Origin: a virus
IMG/VR virus record: IMGVR_UViG_3300009702_000093
Span: 1 to 21,706 of that record
Strand: one strand, 5' to 3'
DNA: 21,706 nucleotides
Both the position numbers and the translations under genes were made by a program. Of the stretch, positions 2,655 to 17,156 are shown one piece after another. The notes beneath the pieces were generated by a model that did no database searches, was not told the DNA's origin, and saw nothing but the letters and a program-made list of their open reading frames with translations. Each line of letters starts with the position of its first letter. Positions within the stretch are counted from its first letter, which is position 1.

Positions 2655-4138
2655 CCCCATACCTCCAGGTCAATGAGAGGAATCTCGCCATCCCACTTGT
2701 CGACCATGCCCGTGACAATGTGGTCTCCATCAACATCACTGGTATCAATCAGTGAAGACGAATCGCCAAGCTCTAAGGGTGGATCTGTAAACGGCACCGT
2801 TACCGTCGTCCTTTTCCGCTTTACGCCGAATAGCGATATGGCCCGGATCGCGACAGCGACTGCGGGTGTCTCATTATCAAAAAAGGTTTCAATCCGCTTT
2901 GCCGTGATGGCATAGGAATATTTTGACTTCACTGTCACATCGTCGACAGGTGACTCATAGCCCTCACTGGACAACCATGTCCTGTAATCCAGAGATACTG
3001 TTGATGCAGGTTGGGTGATACGTGTCCAGTTTCGTCCATAGAGCAAGGGCACTGACCAGATAACATCGCGCTCCTCGCGCCATTTAATATCTGACAACTG
3101 CCGTGTTTCATCGAATACTTCTCCACCTGACACCGGCACTGTGAACAGCCGCGCACGCAGCTTGCTCTGGCGTGTAAACCCCCACCATCCAATGATCCCC
3201 TGCATCAGTTTGGTGATGACATCGGCGAGCCGCTGGCGTGTGTTGATGTAAATGCCGATGGCATCTGCTGGCAGGCCGGTGATATCGATATCCGCTGGTA
3301 CGACACTGCCATAGGTGCGTGATAGCCAGTCGATAATCTGCGTCGTCGAACTCAGCCAGGTAGCGCCATCCATCATGCCCTGGACGTCGCAGGTCAGCTG
3401 GCCAGTAGGTTTTACGCCGAGCGTGATGGTCGCGTTAACGGTATCAACGCTGAACTCACCAGCGGCCGGAGCGCCGGCCACTTTCGTCAATGCTATGCCG
3501 TTGTCATAAACGGCCGTCACATCCTGAATTGGCCCGTCATTCACCTGTGCAACGAGGTTTAACGTATCGATGAACACCGGTGTTATGTTGCGGCAGGTGC
3601 CGAGGCACAGCGGCTTTGCTTTGCCGATGTTTGACGGTGGGAAGTTCGCGCTCTCTGTGCCGTCATACACGGCGGCTGGAATCTCGATGGCATTAAACTG
3701 TGCCTGGCGATCCAGCACCTGGACGGTAATGCCTTCGTCGGGGTTTCCTGAGCGCTCGCCTATGATGCCCTCCAACACGATCGCCCTGTCTGACCAGGCG
3801 ATTTCACTTCGCGGTCCCGTCAGGCAGAGGCGTAGCAACTTATCGCGTATATCAGCCGTTGACAGATCGGTGTTGCCCGCCATTTTGGTGGCCAGCGTCA
3901 GTGGCCCCCAGGCCGGTACGGATTGCCCACCCCAAACCTCCTGGATCCTGCGTGACAGGCGCGGTACGCCGCCTTCGGCAATAATCGGCGAGTACGGCTG
4001 GTTTGCCACCGCATCACCGGGTTCCGTGAAGTACGGTGTGTCCGACAGGTAGACCGGTGAGGCGCCATTTGGATCGATATCGACCAGCAATACCTTTTCA
4101 GTATCGAGGCGCTGGAGGTGCTGGGCCAGCGTCGTCAT
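2651..4138 (-). CDS. tail hub / tip protein
   Basis: A 495-residue protein directly downstream of the tape measure, the usual place for distal-tail and hub proteins. The N-terminus (LLVDIDPNGASPVYLSDTPY) and the long beta-rich body look like tail-tip proteins of Mu-like siphoviruses. Near the C-terminus FTDPPLELGDSSSLIDTSDVD resembles the LGD segment of hub-like domains, where a path out of the tail closes. No protease or lysozyme motif was recognised. ATG at 4138 overlaps the stop of a short in-frame segment after the tape measure (ATGA), so it is likely to be translationally coupled. Confidence 0.65.
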   Translation of the reverse strand: MTTLAQHLQRLDTEKVLLVDIDPNGASPVYLSDTPYFTEPGDAVANQPYSPIIAEGGVPRLSRRIQEVWGGQSVPAWGPLTLATKMAGNTDLSTADIRDKLLRLCLTGPRSEIAWSDRAIVLEGIIGERSGNPDEGITVQVLDRQAQFNAIEIPAAVYDGTESANFPPSNIGKAKPLCLGTCRNITPVFIDTLNLVAQVNDGPIQDVTAVYDNGIALTKVAGAPAAGEFSVDTVNATITLGVKPTGQLTCDVQGMMDGATWLSSTTQIIDWLSRTYGSVVPADIDITGLPADAIGIYINTRQRLADVITKLMQGIIGWWGFTRQSKLRARLFTVPVSGGEVFDETRQLSDIKWREERDVIWSVPLLYGRNWTRITQPASTVSLDYRTWLSSEGYESPVDDVTVKSKYSYAITAKRIETFFDNETPAVAVAIRAISLFGVKRKRTTVTVPFTDPPLELGDSSSLIDTSDVDGDHIVTGMVDKWDGEIPLIDLEVWG

Positions 4139-4245: not shown

Positions 4246-7200
4246 CTAAATCGGTGGCAGGTCAGACGTCTGATTCGTGGCGTTGCGGTCCTGAACAGCC
4301 AAGAGCGCCGCCACCAGCTGGTCTGTCAGTTGCTGGAACTGCGGTCCTGATGCGAACGCGTCACGGCCAGCAGCAATCAAATTCTGTGCTGTGGCGTTCA
4401 GCGAACCGATGTTGTTGTCTGCGAGCGCCGTATTGAAATCCGCCACCAGCGCATCGATCTGCTGCACCGGCGTGAGCGATTGACGCGTGAGCTGCGTGAT
4501 CAGGTCATTGAGTGAGCCGAATTGCTCCTGGATGATCTGTGTTCGCTCCAGTGCGGTTAGCCGCTCGACTTCGTTGAGTTTACGGCCCAACGCCGTGGCA
4601 TTATCGATCCGCTCCTGGGCAACCTTTGCCTGATTCTCAAGCGCGAGCTTTGCCGGATCCTGAATCGCCAGAATCTGGTCACGTATCGATTTATCAAAAT
4701 CCGATCCCAGCTTGGCGATCTGCTCGCTACGTTTGCGCTCGACCTCCTGAATGCTGAAGCCGAGTTTCTTGGCGGCGCCTGCCAGCTGGTCGAACTTGCT
4801 GTTCAGGGCGTTGATCGCCTGCTGCGCCGCGTTAATCGGCTCACCCGGGTCCCTGAACAAGTTGATCAACTGCACGATCTCACCGGCCTTGTTGACCAGG
4901 GCTTTCACATTACCTTGTTTGGCGGCTATCCCATCGAGTAGTTTCGATGCCACCTGATTGTTGGCCAGCGAATCGATAATAGTGACCAGGCGCTCTTTGG
5001 CCACTGTGAAAATCTCGTTATCGAATTTATGGGCTTTGATGCGCGTTCCGACGCCTATGCTTCCCTTTGTGAGACCGGCCTTCACCGTAGCGACCTGTGA
5101 GGTGGTGAGCAGCTTGGCGATGGTCGTATCGATGGTGGACAGGAGGTCGGTTATCCCCTTACCTAATCCGCCGCCGAAGTTGTTGCTTCGATCCGTCAGA
5201 CCGACGACGCCGAATGGCGTGGTGCGCACGTTATTGAAGCGTGCGGCCTGGGCGGTGCTTAAATCCGTGGCTGTGCCGACCTGGACTTTGACCTTTGACT
5301 TGCCGAAGCCGAGGGCGCTACCGATGGCGTTGCCGACGATATCACCCACGAATGAACCGATAGCTGCACCGATCGGACCACCGAAAAAAGCGCCAACGCC
5401 TCCGAGAACAACGCTGCCGACTGTGCCACCGTCATTCGTGCGGATTCCGAGTTGCCCGGAGGCGAAGTTGCCTAAGCGATTGCCGGCGAATCCTGCTCCG
5501 AGCGCAAGCGCGGCCGTGCCGAGTGAGGCCGTGCTCAGTGGCCCAAGGCCTGGGACGTTGATAAACCCGGCTCCAGTGGTACCCGCCGCACTTGCAGCGC
5601 CTGCGCCACCGGGCAGGAATTTCGCGATCGCGGGGCCGATGAATGGCACCTTGGATAGGGATGCAGCGATGCCAGTGGGTGCGCCCCCGGCTGTACCGGC
5701 TGCTCCACCACCTAATTGCTGTGTGACACTGGCAATGGCAGACTGTGAAATACCCAGTGAGCTGCCTACGCTGGTGACGATCGGGATAATGATTTTCCTC
5801 GATGCCGCCAATGTCAGGAGATCCGCAAGCAAGTCTTTGAAAATATTTTTAACCTTATCGGCAAGCCCCTTGAATCCATCTACGCCATCATCGAGCACCT
5901 GCCGGAAGGTATCGCGGAAGGATTGGCGTATTGTTGTTGCTGTGTCCTTGTAGATCTGTGCGATCGGATTTACAGCCTTGGCGAGGCCATTGGATTTATC
6001 GATCGCTGATTTCAGCTCTTTATTGAGTGCCTTTAAGGCCTTCTGATATTCAGCAGCGGACAGGTGTGGCTTGAGCGCATTGAGTTCCTTCAGTGACTGG
6101 TTATAGTCCTTTTGCGCTTTGCGTACCGGGAGGAGTCTGTCCAACAGGGACTTCTGCGCATCACTCATTTTGAAGGCGGCTTTTGCGCCATTATTTTGTG
6201 CCTTGGCCGTGCTGTTGAGTGCTGCTGCAGACTGATTTGCTGAAGCGCGTAATTCATCGAACTTCTTGCGCGATGCATCGATGAGCGCGTTGGCTTTGTC
6301 CAGTGGCAGGTTGCTGCCTAATTCTGATAATTCTAATTTAATATCAGCAATTTCTGCCTTGAATTGAAGGACAGTAAGTTTGTTTTTTGCGATCACCTCT
6401 TTTTGTTGTTTTGTCAACTCACTGAATGGGTGCCTCAGATTGAAATAGGCTTCACTCACTAAAGAAGCACCTTGCACAAGTCTTAATTCAAGCTCTGCAT
6501 CAGCCAATCTCAAGATGTTAAACGCGTCAACAACACCGAGAACACTTGTCGAGATAAGAGCAAAACCTTTGATCACAACCGCAGCACCTTCAAACAGCGA
6601 TTCTGACCAGGTAATAGCCTGATTCGTGCTGATATCAAGATTCTTGCCCAGCTCTTGCAGGAAAGAACTCTCAACCAGCGATATGGTCAGTCCAAGTTTT
6701 TCATTCGAGTCACTTAGCGCATTTTTGAACTGGTCAATGCCGCCAGTCGCGGTTTGACCGAGTGCCTTATTGATGCCACTGACCTGGCTTTCCATGTCGC
6801 GCAGGATAAGGGTAAAGTCCTTGGTGCGTTTTGCCTCATCTGAAAGTGTGATGCCGACACGGCTGAGTTCGCCGGTCATCCCCAGGCTGGCCTTGCCGAC
6901 CAGGTTAGCGGCACTGACAACATCGCCACCCATTTTTGCAGCAAGATCGACCATCACACGTGTCGCGCGCGGCAAGACGTTATCGGCGATATCGGAATAC
7001 GTTGTGAGGAATGATTGGCCCTGGATAATGGCCTCATCACCAATGATGCCTTGACGCTGTATCTGTGCGGCAAGGTTCTGAAGATTCTGGGACAGCCCAA
7101 CCGTGGTTCGCCCCATGCTGGTGATCGAGGCGTCCAGTGCGGCGACCGCCTGCTCTTGCTTTTTGAAATCGGCGACGAATTCAGATGCTTTTCTGAGGCT

Positions 7201-9716: not shown

Positions 9717-10171
9717 GTGATCAGCCCTCGCGCCCAGTCCGTCACGATGGCGTCCATGTCGGCCTGGTTCTCATGAGACAGGCCGAGGTAGGGCCGTGCC
9801 GGAATGGCCTTGCCCACTCCGGCGCCACCGAACTGATGGATGGCGGCGTAGAGGACGTTACTGCCCCATTCGACTTCGCTATTGCCGATTACGTTATAGG
9901 TCAGGCTGTCTTTCAGATCGCCCTCATATTCGAGTAGGCCGACACCGGGCTTGAGTTTGTCTTTGCGGGCCTGGTAGGCGGGTGATAGCGGCGCCCAGGG
10001 CGTGCCGTTGGGGGCGGTCTTTTCTTCGTCGATCCGCCGGCGCGTCTGTGACTCGCCTTCCGCGCCAAGTGCATCGAGCAGCGGCCGCAGGTTTGGCTTT
10101 GCCATGCGCCGTAGCACGGCGCGAACCCGGTCCATGCCCTGCATCTCGATGCTGAAGCGTGCGCCGGTCAT
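9713..10171 (-). CDS. virion morphogenesis protein, Mu gpG-like
   Basis: A 152-residue protein of the phage virion morphogenesis (Phage_tail_S / Mu gpG) family, which acts in head-tail joining. The family features are clear: ESQTRRRIDEEKTAPNG at about 40-56, WAPLSPAYQARK after it, LEYEGDLKDSLTY in the middle, then WGSNVLYAAIHQFGG and IPARPYLGLS at the end. The length is typical. ATG at 10171 overlaps the gp36 stop as TAATG. No irregularity is seen. Confidence 0.88.
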   Translation of the reverse strand: MTGARFSIEMQGMDRVRAVLRRMAKPNLRPLLDALGAEGESQTRRRIDEEKTAPNGTPWAPLSPAYQARKDKLKPGVGLLEYEGDLKDSLTYNVIGNSEVEWGSNVLYAAIHQFGGAGVGKAIPARPYLGLSHENQADMDAIVTDWARGLIT

Positions 10172-10674
10172 TACAGCCCCTTGAGCGTGTTGCGGGTGAA
10201 GATCCGTTCCGGACCTGAGACCACCACGGCGCCGGCACTGGCGGCCGCCGGCTCACCGGCGCCGATGCTGGCTTTGCCCTCGGCCAGATCGCGCAGCCAA
10301 CGCAGGGCGCGATCGTAGCGCTTGGTGATGGTATCGACTTCCTGGTCATCGGTGAGCTGGTAGCGGGCGATATCGCCCGCGTGGCGCGGTAATGGGCTGG
10401 CGTCGATCTGGGCTTGTGAGAGTGGCAGTTCGTAGCGCTTGCCGACGTAGGAATCAATGATGGCGTCAGCAGCATCCAATGCCTCGTTGATCACGACCAG
10501 GGCGGCATCGGCCGCATCGATCTCTGGCTGCGTGTAGGCGGAGCGATTGCCGCCGGAGACGGTGAGTTCCAGGAGTACGGTATCGACGACAGGGTAGCGC
10601 TTGGGTGTCGCGAGCTGCGCGAGTTCCTGGGCGTCGAACCAGTCGAGCAAGTTTTGTGGGGTGGCGTAGATCAT
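10171..10674 (-). CDS. gp36-like head-tail protein (DUF1320)
   Basis: A 167-residue protein with the DUF1320 / Mu gp36 pattern. It opens MIYATPQNLLDWF. A central EIDAADAALVVINEALDAAD leads into IDSYVGKRYELPL, and HAGDIARYQL and YDRALRWLRDLAEGK close the fold. It is a head-tail connector-like structural protein. In Mu and FluMu this gene follows the HI1506-like gene directly. Here four extra genes separate them. ATG at 10674 overlaps the stop of the PhoD-like gene (ATGA) and has no Shine-Dalgarno, so it may depend on translational coupling from the inserted cassette. Confidence 0.88.
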   Translation of the reverse strand: MIYATPQNLLDWFDAQELAQLATPKRYPVVDTVLLELTVSGGNRSAYTQPEIDAADAALVVINEALDAADAIIDSYVGKRYELPLSQAQIDASPLPRHAGDIARYQLTDDQEVDTITKRYDRALRWLRDLAEGKASIGAGEPAAASAGAVVVSGPERIFTRNTLKGL

Positions 10675-12254
10675 AGGAAGGCTTGCCGCATTCCATCAGG
10701 GGCCTGTAGCACAGCGCCAGAGTAAACCTTCGTGGTTCTCTCGACGGTCCCAGCAGCGCTTTCACCGACCGACCGGACAAAATCCACAGACAGTTCCCAA
10801 CCGCCATCATGCTGCTGCGTCAGATCTGCGATAATTCCGGTGTTCGCCACACCCGGGCTGAATTGTGTCTCTGTGATGTCTTTTGTTTGCCAGCGTATCT
10901 GAACGCCCTTATACCCTGACGGCGCCTGCTTCGTTCGGTGTAATCCGTGCTGGTGCCATCCATTACATGACCCCATAGAAAACTGCATCATAGACAACAG
11001 AGCCTTGTTTCCCTCTGGTGGTTTGTATGCATACCGCTCCATCGGGTAGTGCGTGTCACCATGAAAAGCGACAAATGCTGCCCCGTAGCTATTGGCTACA
11101 TCGCATATTCCGCCTGGCTCCCTGACCAGCTCATTCCATTCAGATGCACCGCTGGCATCGAGTGTTAAACCATCAATCGGATCCTGGCTTCCGGAATGCG
11201 CCAGGTCGGCAAAAACAAGTTCCGCATCGATAGCCAGGCGTTCAGCCTGGTCAGAAACGAAATATGACTGCGCGCCACTCATCAAAACCTTGAACGGGCT
11301 ACTTGTGTTGAGGGCCGATTTAATATCGGTGATTTGCGTGACACCAAGCCAGCGCTGTCCAGCGGATATACCACCCGAATTTACCTGCGCCGAAATATCA
11401 TAGATCGCAGAGTTGTTCATGACGGTGAATGCGCGGTCAATACCGATCAACTCCATCGGTCCGACTACGTTCACAGCTGCAGCATGTGCAGGATTCAGTT
11501 CCGGCATAACTGCGCCAATGGTCTGTTTGTACGCTGCCAGCGCCTTATCTCGCCATGCAGTCGTCACATCCCCAGATCTTTCCGGGTTATTAGTGATCTC
11601 GTGATCACCTGTCCACACATAAGAGGGCAGGTTGTGGTGACACCAGATCATGTCAGTGTCATGCATTTGCGTTTCGTTGGCTAGAAGCCCCATAAATGCG
11701 GCATAGCCGACAACGTAACCGTACGTGGTTTTTACTGTGGCGCTCCTTGGGTCGACCCCATTCCACCGTTGGTTACCACCTGCTGCGACCACCGCATATC
11801 CGTCCGTGTAGCCGTGGTCGTCGACATGCAACAATGCGCGGATATTGCGCCCGGCGTCATACTCTGCGTGGATGTACCCCCATATTCCCTTACTTGTTCC
11901 AAATCCACACCGGTAACAAGTCACGACTGCGACGCTGGCATCATTGTCGCCAAAGTCTGTGCATACCGTGATGTTTATAGTGTTTGCGCCCTGGGTAACC
12001 GTACCAGGGTATTTCATATTCTGGCCCAGACCGGCTATTGCAATGTCCGCTCGGTACAGCGCTACCGGTTGCGTTGCAGATGAATCCCCATTCGTTACGC
12101 TATCCCCATCTGTTCCAACAGACGCCCACGCCGCTATGTTGTAGGTAGTGCCATTGACAACGACAGTTGCGGCGGCATTGGATAGCGAAAATACCGACAT
12201 TTTTGCTGTCGTTTTCGTCGATGTATAGCGGATCGCAATAGGCGTTTCCGGCAT
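10671..12254 (-). CDS. PhoD-like metallophosphoesterase in the cargo cassette
   Basis: A 527-residue protein. The first ~115 residues are beta-rich (fibronectin-like or PhoD N-terminal-like). The rest carries metallophosphoesterase marks in the order seen in PhoD-type alkaline phosphatase/phosphodiesterases: LLHVDDHGYTDG at 141-152, a W-T-GDHEITNN block at 214-223 (compare WDDHE in PhoD) and FVAFHGDTHYPMER at 394-407 (compare SGDxH). These Asp, Asn and His residues would bind two metals. PhoD enzymes are normally exported, but no signal or Tat peptide is visible, so this one may be cytoplasmic or carried in the particle. ATG at 12254 overlaps the upstream stop (TAATG), and its own stop overlaps gp36. 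GC is about 45-53%, well below the head and tail genes. The substrate is unknown. Confidence 0.65.
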   Translation of the reverse strand: MPETPIAIRYTSTKTTAKMSVFSLSNAAATVVVNGTTYNIAAWASVGTDGDSVTNGDSSATQPVALYRADIAIAGLGQNMKYPGTVTQGANTINITVCTDFGDNDASVAVVTCYRCGFGTSKGIWGYIHAEYDAGRNIRALLHVDDHGYTDGYAVVAAGGNQRWNGVDPRSATVKTTYGYVVGYAAFMGLLANETQMHDTDMIWCHHNLPSYVWTGDHEITNNPERSGDVTTAWRDKALAAYKQTIGAVMPELNPAHAAAVNVVGPMELIGIDRAFTVMNNSAIYDISAQVNSGGISAGQRWLGVTQITDIKSALNTSSPFKVLMSGAQSYFVSDQAERLAIDAELVFADLAHSGSQDPIDGLTLDASGASEWNELVREPGGICDVANSYGAAFVAFHGDTHYPMERYAYKPPEGNKALLSMMQFSMGSCNGWHQHGLHRTKQAPSGYKGVQIRWQTKDITETQFSPGVANTGIIADLTQQHDGGWELSVDFVRSVGESAAGTVERTTKVYSGAVLQAPDGMRQAFL

Positions 12255-12958
12255 TAGTAAACTCTCAAGTTAGCGAGATTCACGCCATTGGTATTCGCCG
12301 ATCCTGAAATGAACAGGCGTGTGCCTGAGAAATCCAGCGAATCAAAGTTGACTTGAGGTATGACGACGCGATTTTCTACTGAGTTTATGCGTACGATGGA
12401 TTCTCGTGTCTTTTTATCGAAGCTGAAGTAGACCTGCGTGAAGCTGGTTGCAGACCTTATCACGTTAACAAATCGGCTCGCTGCAGGTAGCAACAAATAC
12501 TCAGAAAACGTCTGATGAGTTGTTACAACACCAGCTAAATAGGTTCGCACCCGCACAGCTATATCAGTACCGTTGGTCTCCGTTCTTAGGCCTATACCGA
12601 CGCCGGTGAAGGTGTTATTGGTAAGCTTTCCAGTCCTGGAGGCTGCATCTGAAACCCCCATATAAACATCAATGTTTTGACTATTATCGTTGTTCCGCCC
12701 GATATTCATCTTGACAGCGTTGATAACGCCGCCGACCCCGATATTGACCTGGTCAGTAGGATCGCTACCAGGAAAATCGAGTACGCCATTCGCTACCGAC
12801 GCTGGAAAACTTGGGTACGAAATATCAGCGTTACCCGACCAACTATCGTCTGCCGGATTTTTATCCGGCGCAGAACCGATGAGAACGCCGCTGCGCATGA
12901 AATCGTCGGCGAAACGAATATCTTCAATTTCGTAGTTTGGTGAGATTATCCTGTTCAT
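12254..12958 (-). CDS. unrecognised beta-rich protein of the cargo cassette
   Basis: A 234-residue protein I do not recognise. It opens MNRIISPNYEIEDIRFADDF and continues as alternating beta strands with many Asn, Ser and Gly (residues 60-230). This is suggestive of a concanavalin-like or jelly-roll carbohydrate-binding fold; the FADDF start and the C-terminal LFISGSANTNGVNLANLRVY fit such a fold. There is no signal peptide, transmembrane segment or catalytic motif. Both ends are coupled: ATG at 12958 overlaps the sulfotransferase stop (ATGA), and its TAA overlaps the PhoD-like ATG. A surface or glycan-binding role alongside the two enzymes is inference. GC is low (about 43-47% in places). 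Confidence 0.6.
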   Translation of the reverse strand: MNRIISPNYEIEDIRFADDFMRSGVLIGSAPDKNPADDSWSGNADISYPSFPASVANGVLDFPGSDPTDQVNIGVGGVINAVKMNIGRNNDNSQNIDVYMGVSDAASRTGKLTNNTFTGVGIGLRTETNGTDIAVRVRTYLAGVVTTHQTFSEYLLLPAASRFVNVIRSATSFTQVYFSFDKKTRESIVRINSVENRVVIPQVNFDSLDFSGTRLFISGSANTNGVNLANLRVY

Positions 12959-13530
12959 TGCTCAGACTCGATTTTGTAATTCATGGCGGGCTTGTAGGTG
13001 CTCGGACGCAAAGCAAGTCTTTCGATACCCAGGTAATCACAGATTTCATCTGAAACCGATGCGCTGAACTCCCGCGTATCAACACCGCCGGTCAGGTCGT
13101 CATAGTCCATCACCAGTGCTGAATGATGATCTGAGATAAATGCATCGAGCAGAACTTGTGAGTGATCAATCACATTAATGTGGTCGAGTTCTTTCGGGAC
13201 AGGAATGGTACCCAGATCGATACGTTCTGGTGCCGTGTAGTGAAATTTGACTTTCACGCCATTACTGTTCTTACGCGAGATCAGCTTGCTCAGGTAGCGG
13301 TCTGTCAGATTGCGGCGAATCACGATGACCTTGTCAGGCGCACTGGATAACAGTTCCACGTTGTAGGGCATCGCATGGACGAGGGTGAAATTCATCACCT
13401 CATTGATGCGCGACTTGTTGGGATCTCTATACTCGCCCTCAAAATTTAGCGCTGGGTGTGACCCTAGTGCAGTCGCCAACATGTGTGAACCTGAACGCGG
13501 AGCACTGACCATAATGAATGGATAGTTCAC
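12955..13530 (-). CDS. sulfotransferase
   Basis: A 191-residue protein with the two PAPS-binding signatures of sulfotransferases. The 5'-phosphosulfate loop is at residues 8-18 (VSAPRSGSHML). The 3'-phosphate strand-helix is VIVIRRNLTDRYLSKLIS at 68-85, with R72/R73 and S81 in the expected places. A C-terminal IxDYLGI-type segment is also usual. It is shorter than many (250-300), but small phage and Stf0-like members exist. It would transfer sulfate from PAPS to a sugar or other hydroxyl/amine in the cytoplasm. The start is GTG at 13530, which overlaps the upstream stop (GTGA). A sulfotransferase inside a Mu head-tail gene block is not part of the standard phage set; a role in altering host surface polysaccharide is inference. 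Confidence 0.82.
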   Translation of the reverse strand: MNYPFIMVSAPRSGSHMLATALGSHPALNFEGEYRDPNKSRINEVMNFTLVHAMPYNVELLSSAPDKVIVIRRNLTDRYLSKLISRKNSNGVKVKFHYTAPERIDLGTIPVPKELDHINVIDHSQVLLDAFISDHHSALVMDYDDLTGGVDTREFSASVSDEICDYLGIERLALRPSTYKPAMNYKIESEQ

Positions 13531-13976
13531 TCAACGACCCCCCACTGCAGGGCAACGTCTGCAGGCAATGCTTGGAATATGCTGAGTTTTGTCGGCGTGG
13601 TCAGAAACCCGTCGCACGGGACGACCAGGTTGCTGCCTACCGGGATGACCCAACGCTGACCCGGTGTCTGCGGGTCATTGAATGAGGTGTTGTTCAGTGC
13701 GGCGTAAACAACTGCACTGCCTACAAACGCCTCATCAAGCGCGTACGCCATAATCGAGAAACCTCTTATTCCAGCAAAGTTCATATCCGTCTGTACGGCT
13801 GAACCTGTTCCGGTAATCTCGCCAAAGGTTATTTCGCCAAACACATCGGAAGGGCGAGCTATGTTGATAGAGCCATTCTTTTTTGCGGCTACGGAGTAGG
13901 TTTCAAATACGCCTGGCGACGTCTCTACGTAGGCAACCAGTCCGGCAATAGCGTTCGGTTCAATCTTTTTGCTCAT
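13527..13976 (-). CDS. unrecognised structural-like protein, first gene of the cargo cassette
   Basis: A 149-residue protein I do not recognise. It has a hydrophilic start (MSKKIEPNAIAGLVAYVETS), a beta-rich middle and a C-terminal block with WVIPVGSNLVVPCDGFLTTP and a final QWGVVE. The composition and strand pattern look like a small virion protein such as a decoration or spike component. ATG at 13976 has an AGGAAG Shine-Dalgarno 4 nt upstream, 12 nt after the HI1506-like stop. It is the only cassette gene with its own good ribosome-binding site. The next three are joined to it by stop-start overlaps, so it probably sets translation of the whole cassette. Confidence 0.6.
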   Translation of the reverse strand: MSKKIEPNAIAGLVAYVETSPGVFETYSVAAKKNGSINIARPSDVFGEITFGEITGTGSAVQTDMNFAGIRGFSIMAYALDEAFVGSAVVYAALNNTSFNDPQTPGQRWVIPVGSNLVVPCDGFLTTPTKLSIFQALPADVALQWGVVE

Positions 13977-13988
13977 ATCGCTTCCTGG

Positions 13989-14201
13989 TTAAGTTCCCAC
14001 TTCCTCAACCACCAGCATCGGATCCGCCTTGAGCAGCTCGATCTTCTTCTTGCTCAACCTGGAGACCAGGATCGTCTGCGGCTCGCGGCCGAAGTTGATG
14101 CCGGCGCGCCAGCGGCTGTCCTGCGTGGCGTGGATTTTCAGGGCGGGCTTCTTGCCGCCTGCATTTTTGGCGCCTGTTTGGGTTTCTGTCTTGCCTGCCA
14201 T
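13989..14201 (-). CDS. HI1506-like (FluMu gp35-type) small head protein
   Basis: A 70-residue basic protein that follows the capsid gene, as gp35/HI1506 does in Mu and FluMu. The recognisable core is LKIHATQDSRWRAGINFGRE, followed by a Leu/Lys-rich helix (LSKKKIELLKADPMLVVEEV). The start was placed at ATG 14201, not at the upstream frame start (14216), because GAGGGG (plus CCCCTC, 14209-14214) lies 7 nt before it. The family assignment rests on the R-A-G-I pattern and the position. It lies just downstream of the RNA element that follows the capsid gene. Confidence 0.75.
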   Translation of the reverse strand: MAGKTETQTGAKNAGGKKPALKIHATQDSRWRAGINFGREPQTILVSRLSKKKIELLKADPMLVVEEVGT

Positions 14202-14276
14202 CGGATGACCCCTCATGTGTAATGTGTGCGTGTTCTGCCTACACCAATCCCCGGCTATCCAACACGCGAAGGTTCA

Positions 14277-14355: not shown

Positions 14356-15438
14356 TTATACGGTGCCGTCCGAGCCATAGCTCATCTGCCAGAAGGCGTA
14401 GCCGCCAGCGGCGCGGGCTTCGGCGCCGAACTTGTACATGCGGCGGTTGAACACATCGTCAGCGTTCATGTCGGTCTGGGAGACGAACACCGGCTTCTTG
14501 CGCTCCTGGTAGATGAACGGTTTGACCGGGCGGCTGGTCACGTGCAGGAACCAGGCGGTGTCGGAGGTGAGGCGCGGATTGACCAACACCTTGGCAGTCC
14601 CCTTGAACGGGTTCTTGGTGCCGTCCTCCAGCTCATCATTCTCCAGCAGGACGCGTGCGGTGGTTTCCAGCGCCGGCGGTACCTCCAGGGTATCGGGTAC
14701 CAGCGCCAGCGGGCGCGCTTCGTCGTCGGTGAACTTCATGACGGCCGTGCGTGCATTGCCATAACTGCCCTGGGCGGCGGCGACCGTGGCGGCCGACAGC
14801 TTGGCGGTGCCCTTGTTGCTGAACAGGACCGTGCCACCGTCACCATCACCCACCGGGTGATCGGTGTCGTAGAAGAACTGGCCGTCGTAGCACAGGCTGG
14901 TGAACGCGGCGTTCTTCAGGTCGGCCACGATCTCATCCGGCAGCTGTGCAGATGAATGCCCGGCTTCCTGCGCCTGCGGCGCGTAGATGCCCAGGGTGTC
15001 GTCTTCGATGTGGTTACGGTCAACCTCGACGGTGGCCTCCCAATCATCGTTAACGATGGTGTACTTGAAGGCGGCCAGCGCCTTGACCACCTTGTCACCA
15101 ATCCACTTGCGCATACGCGGGAACCGGGATAACCAGGAGTAATCGTTCTGACTGGATCCAGACGGCACCAGCATGGCGGTCTGTTGCCAGTCACTGGGCG
15201 CGGTATCGAAAGCCTTGTTAAAGGTCGTTTTAAGGTTGATGAACACGTTGCTGAGCGTGTTCTTGTTGATCAGCAGGCCGGCCATGCCGAACATCGGCAG
15301 GGAATGGTTCAGCAGTGTATCTGCATGACCACCGGTCATGGCCACCAGGTCGGGCGTTGGGCCGCCAACCGCAAACGCGGCGGCCGAGACCAGCACGCTG
15401 GCGATCAGCATCGAGAGGAAGGTGAGGACAGATTTCAT
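14356..15438 (-). CDS. major capsid protein, Mu gpT-like, with N-terminal extension
   Basis: A 360-residue gpT-family major head protein. The classical gpT start appears at about residue 54 (LLINKNTLSNVFINLKTTF). Then come DTAPSDWQQTAMLVPSGSSQ, WIGDKVVKALAAFKYTI, RNHIEDDTLGIYAPQAQEAG and the C-terminal NRRMYKFGAEARAAGGYAFW. Upstream of this core is an unusual ~50-residue segment whose first 24 residues look like a signal peptide or membrane helix (Lys, then LTFLSMLIASVLVSAAAFA). ATG at 15438 was chosen because GGAG lies about 11 nt before it; internal ATGs at 15294 and 15285 are nearer the usual start but lack a ribosome-binding site. The frame upstream of 15438 is shadow of the decoration gene. 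Confidence 0.88.
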   Translation of the reverse strand: MKSVLTFLSMLIASVLVSAAAFAVGGPTPDLVAMTGGHADTLLNHSLPMFGMAGLLINKNTLSNVFINLKTTFNKAFDTAPSDWQQTAMLVPSGSSQNDYSWLSRFPRMRKWIGDKVVKALAAFKYTIVNDDWEATVEVDRNHIEDDTLGIYAPQAQEAGHSSAQLPDEIVADLKNAAFTSLCYDGQFFYDTDHPVGDGDGGTVLFSNKGTAKLSAATVAAAQGSYGNARTAVMKFTDDEARPLALVPDTLEVPPALETTARVLLENDELEDGTKNPFKGTAKVLVNPRLTSDTAWFLHVTSRPVKPFIYQERKKPVFVSQTDMNADDVFNRRMYKFGAEARAAGGYAFWQMSYGSDGTV

Positions 15439-15920: not shown

Positions 15921-16421
15921 TCAGGCCTGGCCGTACTTCTTGATGTCCTCGACCGAGTTGCCGAACTGGTCGGCCACCGCCTGGGCTTCGGCGTTCAGCG
16001 CCGTGCCGTCGCCTTCGGGCTTCTTCTTGTCCAGCTCGGTGTCGGGGACGATCTGCGGCGCGCTCTCGCAGAACTTCCGGAAGCGCTCCAGGCCGCCATC
16101 CTGGGCGCAGCTGGCGGTGTAGAACTCGACGCTGGCCGGGGTGATCTTGCCGGCGTTGAGCGCGGTCTCGATCTCGGCCTTGATTTCAGCGTCCCTGGAC
16201 TCGGTCTTGATCGACTCCAGCTGCTGTTCGGCGTTGGTGGCGCGCTGGATCTGTGCGTCGTAGTCGGCACGTGGCACGTACAGATCCAGTGACGGTGTCG
16301 CCTGGGCGTTGCGGGCGGTGTCGATGTCAGTCCGCAGCTGGTTGATGGCGCTGATGGCCTGTTCCTCGGTGGCGTTATCAGCCAGCCCCAGGGCAGCACA
16401 AATGGCTTTTGAAAGGTTCAT
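15921..16421 (-). CDS. nested scaffold protein (Mu gpZ-like)
   Basis: A second internal ATG at 16421 begins the scaffold segment (MNLSKAICAALGLAD). GGAGA (plus TCTCC, 16429-16433) lies 7 nt before it. The product is 166 residues with a helical coiled-coil-like middle (YDAQIQRATNAEQQLESIK) and an acidic tail. Mu makes its scaffold gpZ from an internal start in gene I, so this is expected for the family. The scaffold helps assemble the prohead and is removed by the protease. Confidence 0.7.
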   Translation of the reverse strand: MNLSKAICAALGLADNATEEQAISAINQLRTDIDTARNAQATPSLDLYVPRADYDAQIQRATNAEQQLESIKTESRDAEIKAEIETALNAGKITPASVEFYTASCAQDGGLERFRKFCESAPQIVPDTELDKKKPEGDGTALNAEAQAVADQFGNSVEDIKKYGQA

Positions 16422-16652
16422 GGAATCTTCTCCATTGTTTGCAGGTAAGGTTTTGTTGAGCGTGTCGACTGACACACCCAGCACACGGGCGAAGCCGGCC
16501 AGACGGTTGTCCGGCGGGCGGGAAATCTCACCGCGCAGGATTTCACCCATCGTGGATTCACTGATGCCGCCGGCCTTAGCCAGCTGCGCAGTGGTGATGT
16601 TCTTTTCTTTCATGAGGCGCGTTAGCAGGCGCCCCAGATCGCTGGCTTGCAT
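15921..16652 (-). CDS. possible nested product: HTH + scaffold
   Basis: An internal in-frame ATG at 16652 (peptide MQASDLGRLLTRLMKEK) is preceded by AGGAGA (plus TCTCCT, 16661-16666) with an 8-nt spacer, a near-ideal ribosome-binding site. The 243-residue product would keep the XRE-type HTH and the scaffold but drop the protease. Since the full-length start has no Shine-Dalgarno, this product could be more abundant. Whether it binds DNA or only joins the prohead is not known. The start quality is seen in the sequence; expression is inference. Confidence 0.5.
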   Translation of the reverse strand: MQASDLGRLLTRLMKEKNITTAQLAKAGGISESTMGEILRGEISRPPDNRLAGFARVLGVSVDTLNKTLPANNGEDSMNLSKAICAALGLADNATEEQAISAINQLRTDIDTARNAQATPSLDLYVPRADYDAQIQRATNAEQQLESIKTESRDAEIKAEIETALNAGKITPASVEFYTASCAQDGGLERFRKFCESAPQIVPDTELDKKKPEGDGTALNAEAQAVADQFGNSVEDIKKYGQA

Positions 16653-17156
16653 GGATAGACTCTCCTGATTGAGTGCCGGCAACGGCAGATTGGGGTTGTT
16701 GACCAGGCCGACCGAACGCATCCGGGTGATGCGGCCGGTCTCGCGTTCAAACAGGAAGGTCGGCGACAGGTAGCGGTACTCGCGCGCCTGCAGGGAATTG
16801 CGTCCGGCGTCGGTCCAGGTGACGTGGCCCCAGATCGCACCGCCGTCACGGACTTCGAGTTTGTTGATCCAGCCGGCGGCCGGCGAGGGTTCGCCGTGGC
16901 GTGCCTTCAGTTCGGTGGCGTGATTCCAGTCAACGGGCAGATCCTTGCCATCTGCAGCAAACGCATCGAGGATGGCCTGCGGCTGATCGTTCAACCAGGC
17001 GCGGCCGTCGCGGCCAATGACCTGCTGGCCGGCCGGGATCAGTTCGACGACATCGGGCAGCGCGCCCTGCTGGGCGTTGAGTTCGAGGCACAGCGTCGCC
17101 AGCTCCGGGCTGAGCGACTCGTTCATTGCGACGACAATGGCGGGATGACCGTACAT
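15921..17156 (-). CDS. prohead protease-scaffold (Mu gpI-like) with inserted HTH domain
   Basis: A 411-residue protein in three parts. Residues ~11-165 are the Mu gpI protease, with LPVDWNHATE (His 79), AAGWINKLEVRDGGAIWG and EYRYLSPTF (Ser 131), which carry the His and Ser expected at the active site. Residues ~173-238 are an XRE-type helix-turn-helix (RLMKEKNITTAQLAKAGGIS, then ILRGEISRPP and ARVLGVSVDTLN). Residues ~246-411 are the scaffold (gpZ-like), with LSKAICAALGLADNATEEQA and a coiled, acidic C-terminal half. In Mu the scaffold is also made from an internal start. The HTH between protease and scaffold is not standard. ATG at 17156 has no clear Shine-Dalgarno; ATG at 17126 is an alternative. 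An in-frame TAA just upstream excludes a longer form. Confidence 0.85.
   Translation of the reverse strand: MYGHPAIVVAMNESLSPELATLCLELNAQQGALPDVVELIPAGQQVIGRDGRAWLNDQPQAILDAFAADGKDLPVDWNHATELKARHGEPSPAAGWINKLEVRDGGAIWGHVTWTDAGRNSLQAREYRYLSPTFLFERETGRITRMRSVGLVNNPNLPLPALNQESLSMQASDLGRLLTRLMKEKNITTAQLAKAGGISESTMGEILRGEISRPPDNRLAGFARVLGVSVDTLNKTLPANNGEDSMNLSKAICAALGLADNATEEQAISAINQLRTDIDTARNAQATPSLDLYVPRADYDAQIQRATNAEQQLESIKTESRDAEIKAEIETALNAGKITPASVEFYTASCAQDGGLERFRKFCESAPQIVPDTELDKKKPEGDGTALNAEAQAVADQFGNSVEDIKKYGQA

Follow-up and report, generated by a model that had tools for sequence, protein, structure and literature searches.

The window analysed here, 21,706 bases long, is a virus record from IMG/VR with no host assignment. 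On the head side, its minus strand encodes in order a protease/scaffold protein, a small structural protein, a major capsid protein (MCP) of the Mu gpT type, an HI1506-like protein, four ORFs and gp36, and downstream of gp36 follow a gp37-like gene, a tail terminator, a tail tube, a tape measure and the tail-fibre end. The four ORFs occupy positions 10671–13976 and form a tightly packed cassette (Table 1). An earlier note on this DNA had described them as lying between the HI1506-like gene and gp36 with stop-start overlaps of 1–4 nt, and this arrangement was confirmed: the overlaps between the ORFs measure 4, 4, and 1 nt (junction sequences GAGTGA, AATGA, and TAATG), and the stop of ORF 4 overlaps the start of gp36 by another 4 nt (ATGA).

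Table 1. Genes of the cassette and of the neighbouring head region in the window.
Feature	Position	Strand	Description
ORF 1 of the cassette	13527–13976	-	149 aa, no family; ribosome-binding site AGGAAG
ORF 2 of the cassette	12955–13530	-	191 aa, GTG start; putative short sulfotransferase, Sulfotransfer_3-like
ORF 3 of the cassette	12254–12958	-	234 aa, no family; apparently beta-rich by composition
ORF 4 of the cassette	10671–12254	-	527 aa, putative relative of PhoD-like metallophosphoesterases
HI1506-like (FluMu_N) gene, upstream edge of the slot	13989–14216	-	PF17891 E = 7.9e-4, below cut-off
gp36 / head-tail adaptor, downstream edge of the slot	10171–10674	-	PF07030 E = 2e-27; phrog_195 E = 2.1e-36
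Major capsid protein (MCP), Mu gpT-like	14356–15276	-	62% identity to the major head protein of Pseudomonas phage H70

The cassette is poorer in GC than the head genes around it, with 52.7, 49.1, 47.2, and 53.1% in ORFs 1–4 compared with 59.6% in the HI1506-like gene, 61.1% in the MCP gene, and 63.7% in gp36. The earlier note was therefore right that the GC content drops relative to the flanks (47–53% versus 60–64%), but the low value is not special to the cassette, as the tail-fibre end of the same phage (1246–4138) is also GC-poor (46–56%).

To place the junction in a wider context, capsid relatives were gathered from viral and bacterial genomes and the distance from the end of the capsid gene to the start of gp36 was measured. 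This gap amounts to 9–746 bp in 107 of 111 distinct relative slots, which leaves space for the HI1506-like gene only and none for cargo, and to about 3.7 kb in the window. It exceeds 2 kb in the other four relatives (L002, L007, L012, and L020), and a fifth filled relative is L239, where 1.7 kb separates the HI1506-like gene and gp36. The cassette is thus firmly established as a true insertion, beyond chance, at an otherwise tight junction of the head operon. None of the relatives carries any of the four genes. Together with the short gaps, this supports the earlier proposal of a foreign cargo unit outside the ordinary gene set of the lineage.

The closest phages, L002 and L239, encode gp36 proteins 95 and 92% identical to that of the window and share 84–93% nucleotide identity with it on both sides of the slot. 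Their slots hold a set of four different genes, encoding proteins of 107 aa, 214/218 aa, and 150 aa and a DUF1353 protein. In both sisters, homology to the window ends at position 14008, within the final codons of the HI1506-like gene, and restarts exactly at 10674, the first base of the gp36 start codon. Since the breakpoints fall at gene edges in both, the cargo has been replaced at gene edges with the gp36 overlap kept, and a swap of whole gene sets in the slot is firmly shown. The junction thus shows what defines a variable cargo slot: a fixed site that lies between conserved neighbours and, among close relatives, holds genes without homology to one another. The last gene of the L002 set (4557–4892, DUF1353) is 66% identical to another DUF1353 gene of the window, which lies at 929–1249 directly after the window's own tail-fibre gene. 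Phospholipase A2 activity has been demonstrated for one member of the DUF1353 family (PMC11525133).

ORF 2 carries a 5'-phosphosulfate-binding (PAPS) loop, APRSGSHML, near its N-terminus, which fits the pattern PRSG[ST], as well as E33. Residues 4–38 match PF13469 (Sulfotransfer_3) with E = 1.8e-4 and a score of 22.3 bits, which does not reach the curated cut-off of 27. In a profile-profile comparison (hhalign) with 28 independently gathered bacterial members of the family, ORF 2 scored 43.8 (probability 81%), compared with at most 20.5 for 30 shuffles and at most 16.5 for seven other proteins of the window. Further downstream, the segment VIRRNLTDRYLS resembles by eye a 3'-phosphate-binding motif, and the profile probability for residues 41–191 is 1.75%. 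The assignment of ORF 2 to the relatives of P-loop sulfotransferases is thereby supported in outline for its N-terminal part. Of the PAPS-dependent sulfotransferase announced earlier, the PAPS loop stands, with a significant profile match; the full family call falls below the curated cut-off, and the C-terminal part is assigned by motif only. An AlphaFold2 model made without an alignment (pLDDT 30) was not usable. A sulfotransferase match in L100 (E = 0.0075) was set aside as too weak to use, the gene resembling another sulfotransferase family.

For ORF 4, the match to PF09423 (PhoD) has E = 0.011 and 15.3 bits, again short of the curated cut-off of 27. Residues 104–242 scored 46.5 (probability 72%) against a profile built from 26 bacterial PhoD proteins (hhalign), compared with at most 20.3 for shuffles; the N-terminal halves of ORF 2 and ORF 4 thus score about twice their best shuffle against the respective family profiles. 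The conserved residues C113, D146, Y149, D217-H-E, N222, and N223 are kept, and of these C113, D146, D217, N222, and N223 align to Cys180, Asp207, Asp266, Asn271, and Asn272 of Bacillus subtilis PhoD, a mapping made via the conserved motifs of bacterial family members rather than by direct alignment to a solved structure. Gly216, however, stands where PhoD has Asp265, a position at which all 26 bacterial family members have Asp. A plausible counterpart of the Asp436 motif is HGDTH at 398–402 (GD400TH), in a C-terminal half for which the profile probability is 0.4%. In B. subtilis PhoD, the substitutions C180A, D265A, N271A, N272A, and D436A abolish activity, and D207A and D266A nearly do so (PMC4223295). 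A relationship of the N-terminal half of ORF 4 to PhoD is supported in outline, and the protein may be non-catalytic. The earlier PhoD-like call is the weaker of the two family calls; it holds for most of the metal ligands and fails at the lost Asp265 ligand and at the Pfam cut-off. As in the Bacillus enzyme, Cys, GDxxY-like, and DHExxNN metal motifs follow one another along ORF 4, with a plausible GDxH motif after them; ORF 4 differs in Gly216 and in a C-terminal half without profile support (PMC4223295). The AlphaFold2 model of ORF 4, also made without an alignment, was not usable (pLDDT 32). A PhoD-like match in L099 (E = 0.006) proved to be a shadow frame within an rseP-like gene.

The remaining two proteins belong to no known family. 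For ORF 1, neither tblastn nor a pattern search nor profile-profile comparison yielded a relative, and ORF 3 matched no Pfam, NCBIfam, or PADLOC model, its best similarity being to phrog_28180 (E = 0.01), a family of unknown function. Neither is homologous to the proteins of the sisters or of other slot occupants. The cassette as a whole is also rare. Searches of viral contigs with all four proteins, of genome contigs and plasmids with ORF 4, of phages with ORFs 2, 3, and 4, and of 369 genomes of one class with ORFs 2 and 4 found no real relative. A DNA pattern for the PAPS loop gave 0 matches, PF13469 and PF09423 were found in 0 of 50 related virus records, and PDB sequence searches yielded nothing meaningful. 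The tblastn searches returned no matches whatever at E ≤ 10, and near copies of the window may be missing from the collections searched, so the failure to find relatives is not proof of absence.

A textbook moron has its own promoter and terminator (PMC4378225). The cassette does not conform to this description: no sigma-70-type promoter was seen on the minus strand between 10000 and 14600, and the hairpin matches on this strand lie within genes. The earlier observation that only the first gene has a good ribosome-binding site is broadly right, with AGGAAG at ORF 1 and only partial sites at the other three, such as a G-run before ORF 2 and GAGAG before ORF 4. The cassette is most likely carried on the late transcript and translationally coupled to gp36. 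The overlaps within a structural operon thereby support the suggested expression with the late genes, the late timing being deduced from this arrangement.

The company found in the slot gives some indication of function. L020 encodes a reverse transcriptase (phrog_1423 E = 7.9e-120) and a protein in which the second Mtd domain is recognised (PF21916 E = 5e-23), together with a pair of 116-nt repeats (VR 2860–2975, TR 3065–3180). All 16 differences between VR and TR fall at TR adenines, which is the signature of a diversity-generating retroelement. This complete-looking element (L020, 940–4640) lies directly after the major capsid gene and ahead of the HI1506-like gene. L007 carries a 760-aa protein of the laminin-G lectin type (PF13385 E = 1.5e-25), and L012 a repetitive, fibre-like protein of 1092 aa, whose role can only be guessed from its repeats. 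Features of host recognition are therefore present in four of the five other filled slots (L020, L007, L002, and L239), where the two sisters are counted because of their DUF1353 gene, akin to the gene after the tail fibre. This company points to host recognition or adsorption, in preference to a paired chemistry of addition and removal. Its bearing on the window's own cassette is by association and circumstantial.

Taken together, the four genes are best explained as a horizontally acquired cassette of a transposable phage whose head is of the Mu type, occupying a site of variable content flanked by the HI1506-like gene and gp36. Whole gene sets are swapped at this site, its downstream edge coincides with the first base of the gp36 start codon, and the occupants in the close lineage are all translationally coupled to gp36, so that cargo is probably produced in the late phase along with virion proteins. 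A probability of about one half is given to the reading as an exchangeable cargo unit that is expressed late and most likely serves interaction with the host surface; the surface role is suggested by the other cargo of the slot and by the enzyme classes. ORF 1, ORF 3, and the PhoD-like protein could be accessory components of the virion, or be released, and could bind or trim an envelope polymer that carries phosphate. As a sulfotransferase needs cytoplasmic PAPS, the site of action of ORF 2 would be the infected cell, its target being either a virion protein or a precursor of the envelope. The mechanism first suggested, in which the two enzymes would add and remove charged groups on a glycan, is possible but speculative. 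It has also been considered, as a rather unlikely generalization, that the junction after the MCP gene in these Mu-like phages is a dedicated second host-recognition site, perhaps displayed on the head, with occupants ranging from retroelement-diversified binders and lectins to, in the window, enzymes sulfating and dephosphorylating surface polymers.

The strongest alternative, although unlikely, is that the cassette acts on the cell and not on the virion: the sulfotransferase, alone or together with the PhoD-like protein, would change the host envelope and block adsorption of further phages. Phage genes that modify the O-antigen are a parallel for such cargo, and the use of cytoplasmic PAPS by sulfotransferases suits an enzyme whose PAPS loop is intact. 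Typical conversion genes, however, are expressed in the lysogen, while here no promoter of the cassette's own was found, the genes are coupled to gp36 in a structural operon, and the other content of the slot is receptor-binding-like. It is less probable still that the enzyme-like domains are dead folds serving in capsid decoration. Decoration proteins encoded by accessory genes have been described for this head module (PMC4378225), and one essential PhoD ligand is lost, but the sulfotransferase has kept its PAPS loop and a segment resembling a 3'-type motif, and most of the other PhoD ligands are retained. Anti-defence cargo, whose enzymes would act, by modification or hydrolysis, on a nucleotide signal or some other target of host immunity inside the cell, is quite improbable. 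PhoD-type enzymes can be phosphodiesterases, and related Mu-like Pseudomonas phages carry anti-CRISPR accessory ORFs in their plastic regions (PMC4378225). Accessory ORFs of that kind in phage H70, however, precede the protease gene rather than occupying this slot, a sulfotransferase with two small proteins of no family fits such a role poorly, and no PADLOC model matched, these models covering defence rather than counter-defence proteins. Finally, a recent random capture of bacterial genes without selected function, to which the low GC and the single encounter with the cassette in everything searched might point, is very improbable, given that all four ORFs are intact and overlap within a late operon that is polar, that the edges are precise, and that the slot is filled in the sisters too.

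The slot recalls the plasticity regions of Casadabanvirus, Mu-like phages of Pseudomonas, in which varied, often low-GC genes occupy fixed sites within a conserved head-tail core and some encode virion proteins (PMC4378225). Those regions mostly hold one short ORF, whereas the slot described here is multi-gene, follows the MCP gene, and includes two enzyme-like proteins; in phage H70, only small annotated ORFs follow the major head gene. The element in L020, with its Mtd-like protein, reverse transcriptase, and VR/TR pair, resembles the Mtd-retroelement cassettes of Bordetella phage BPP-1 and the Bacteroides hankyphage, but it lies between the capsid and HI1506-like genes instead of at the tail-fibre locus, and the window contains no such element. 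Short phage-borne sulfotransferases are known from marine phages, namely the Sulfotransfer_3 (PF13469) genes of Synechococcus phage S-SRM01 and of OM43 phages, and their role has been called unclear (PMC10580990). ORF 2 differs from these in its placement in a Mu-type structural operon and is not detectably close to any phage record. A phosphodiesterase domain among virion genes also has a precedent in the tail-associated GDPD enzymes of enterococcal phages, thought to cut teichoic acid, which differ from ORF 4 in enzyme family and in their location in the tail module (PMC10194240).

These results delimit, in the head operon of Mu-like phages, a slot with precise borders whose cargo is exchangeable and consists in part of host-recognition genes, including one diversity-generating retroelement. 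If active, the cassette would to our knowledge be the first case in which a phage combines a sulfotransferase and a PhoD-like phosphoesterase among its virion genes, and would provide a concrete setting for testing the role of phage sulfotransferases.

Two further features of the window lie outside the slot. The Mu-like protease/scaffold protein (15921–17156; PF10123 E = 3.9e-59) contains at residues 178–235 a Cro/C1-type helix-turn-helix domain (PF13443 E = 6.8e-11). A search for this domain found it only in the sister L002, whereas the whole protein matches 148 ORFs. Phage H70 has an accessory DNA-binding ORF just before its protease/scaffold gene, so a domain fusion may be considered for the window. 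After the tail-fibre end, positions 173–907 contain a gene for a D12-class adenine methyltransferase (PF02086 E = 1e-13).
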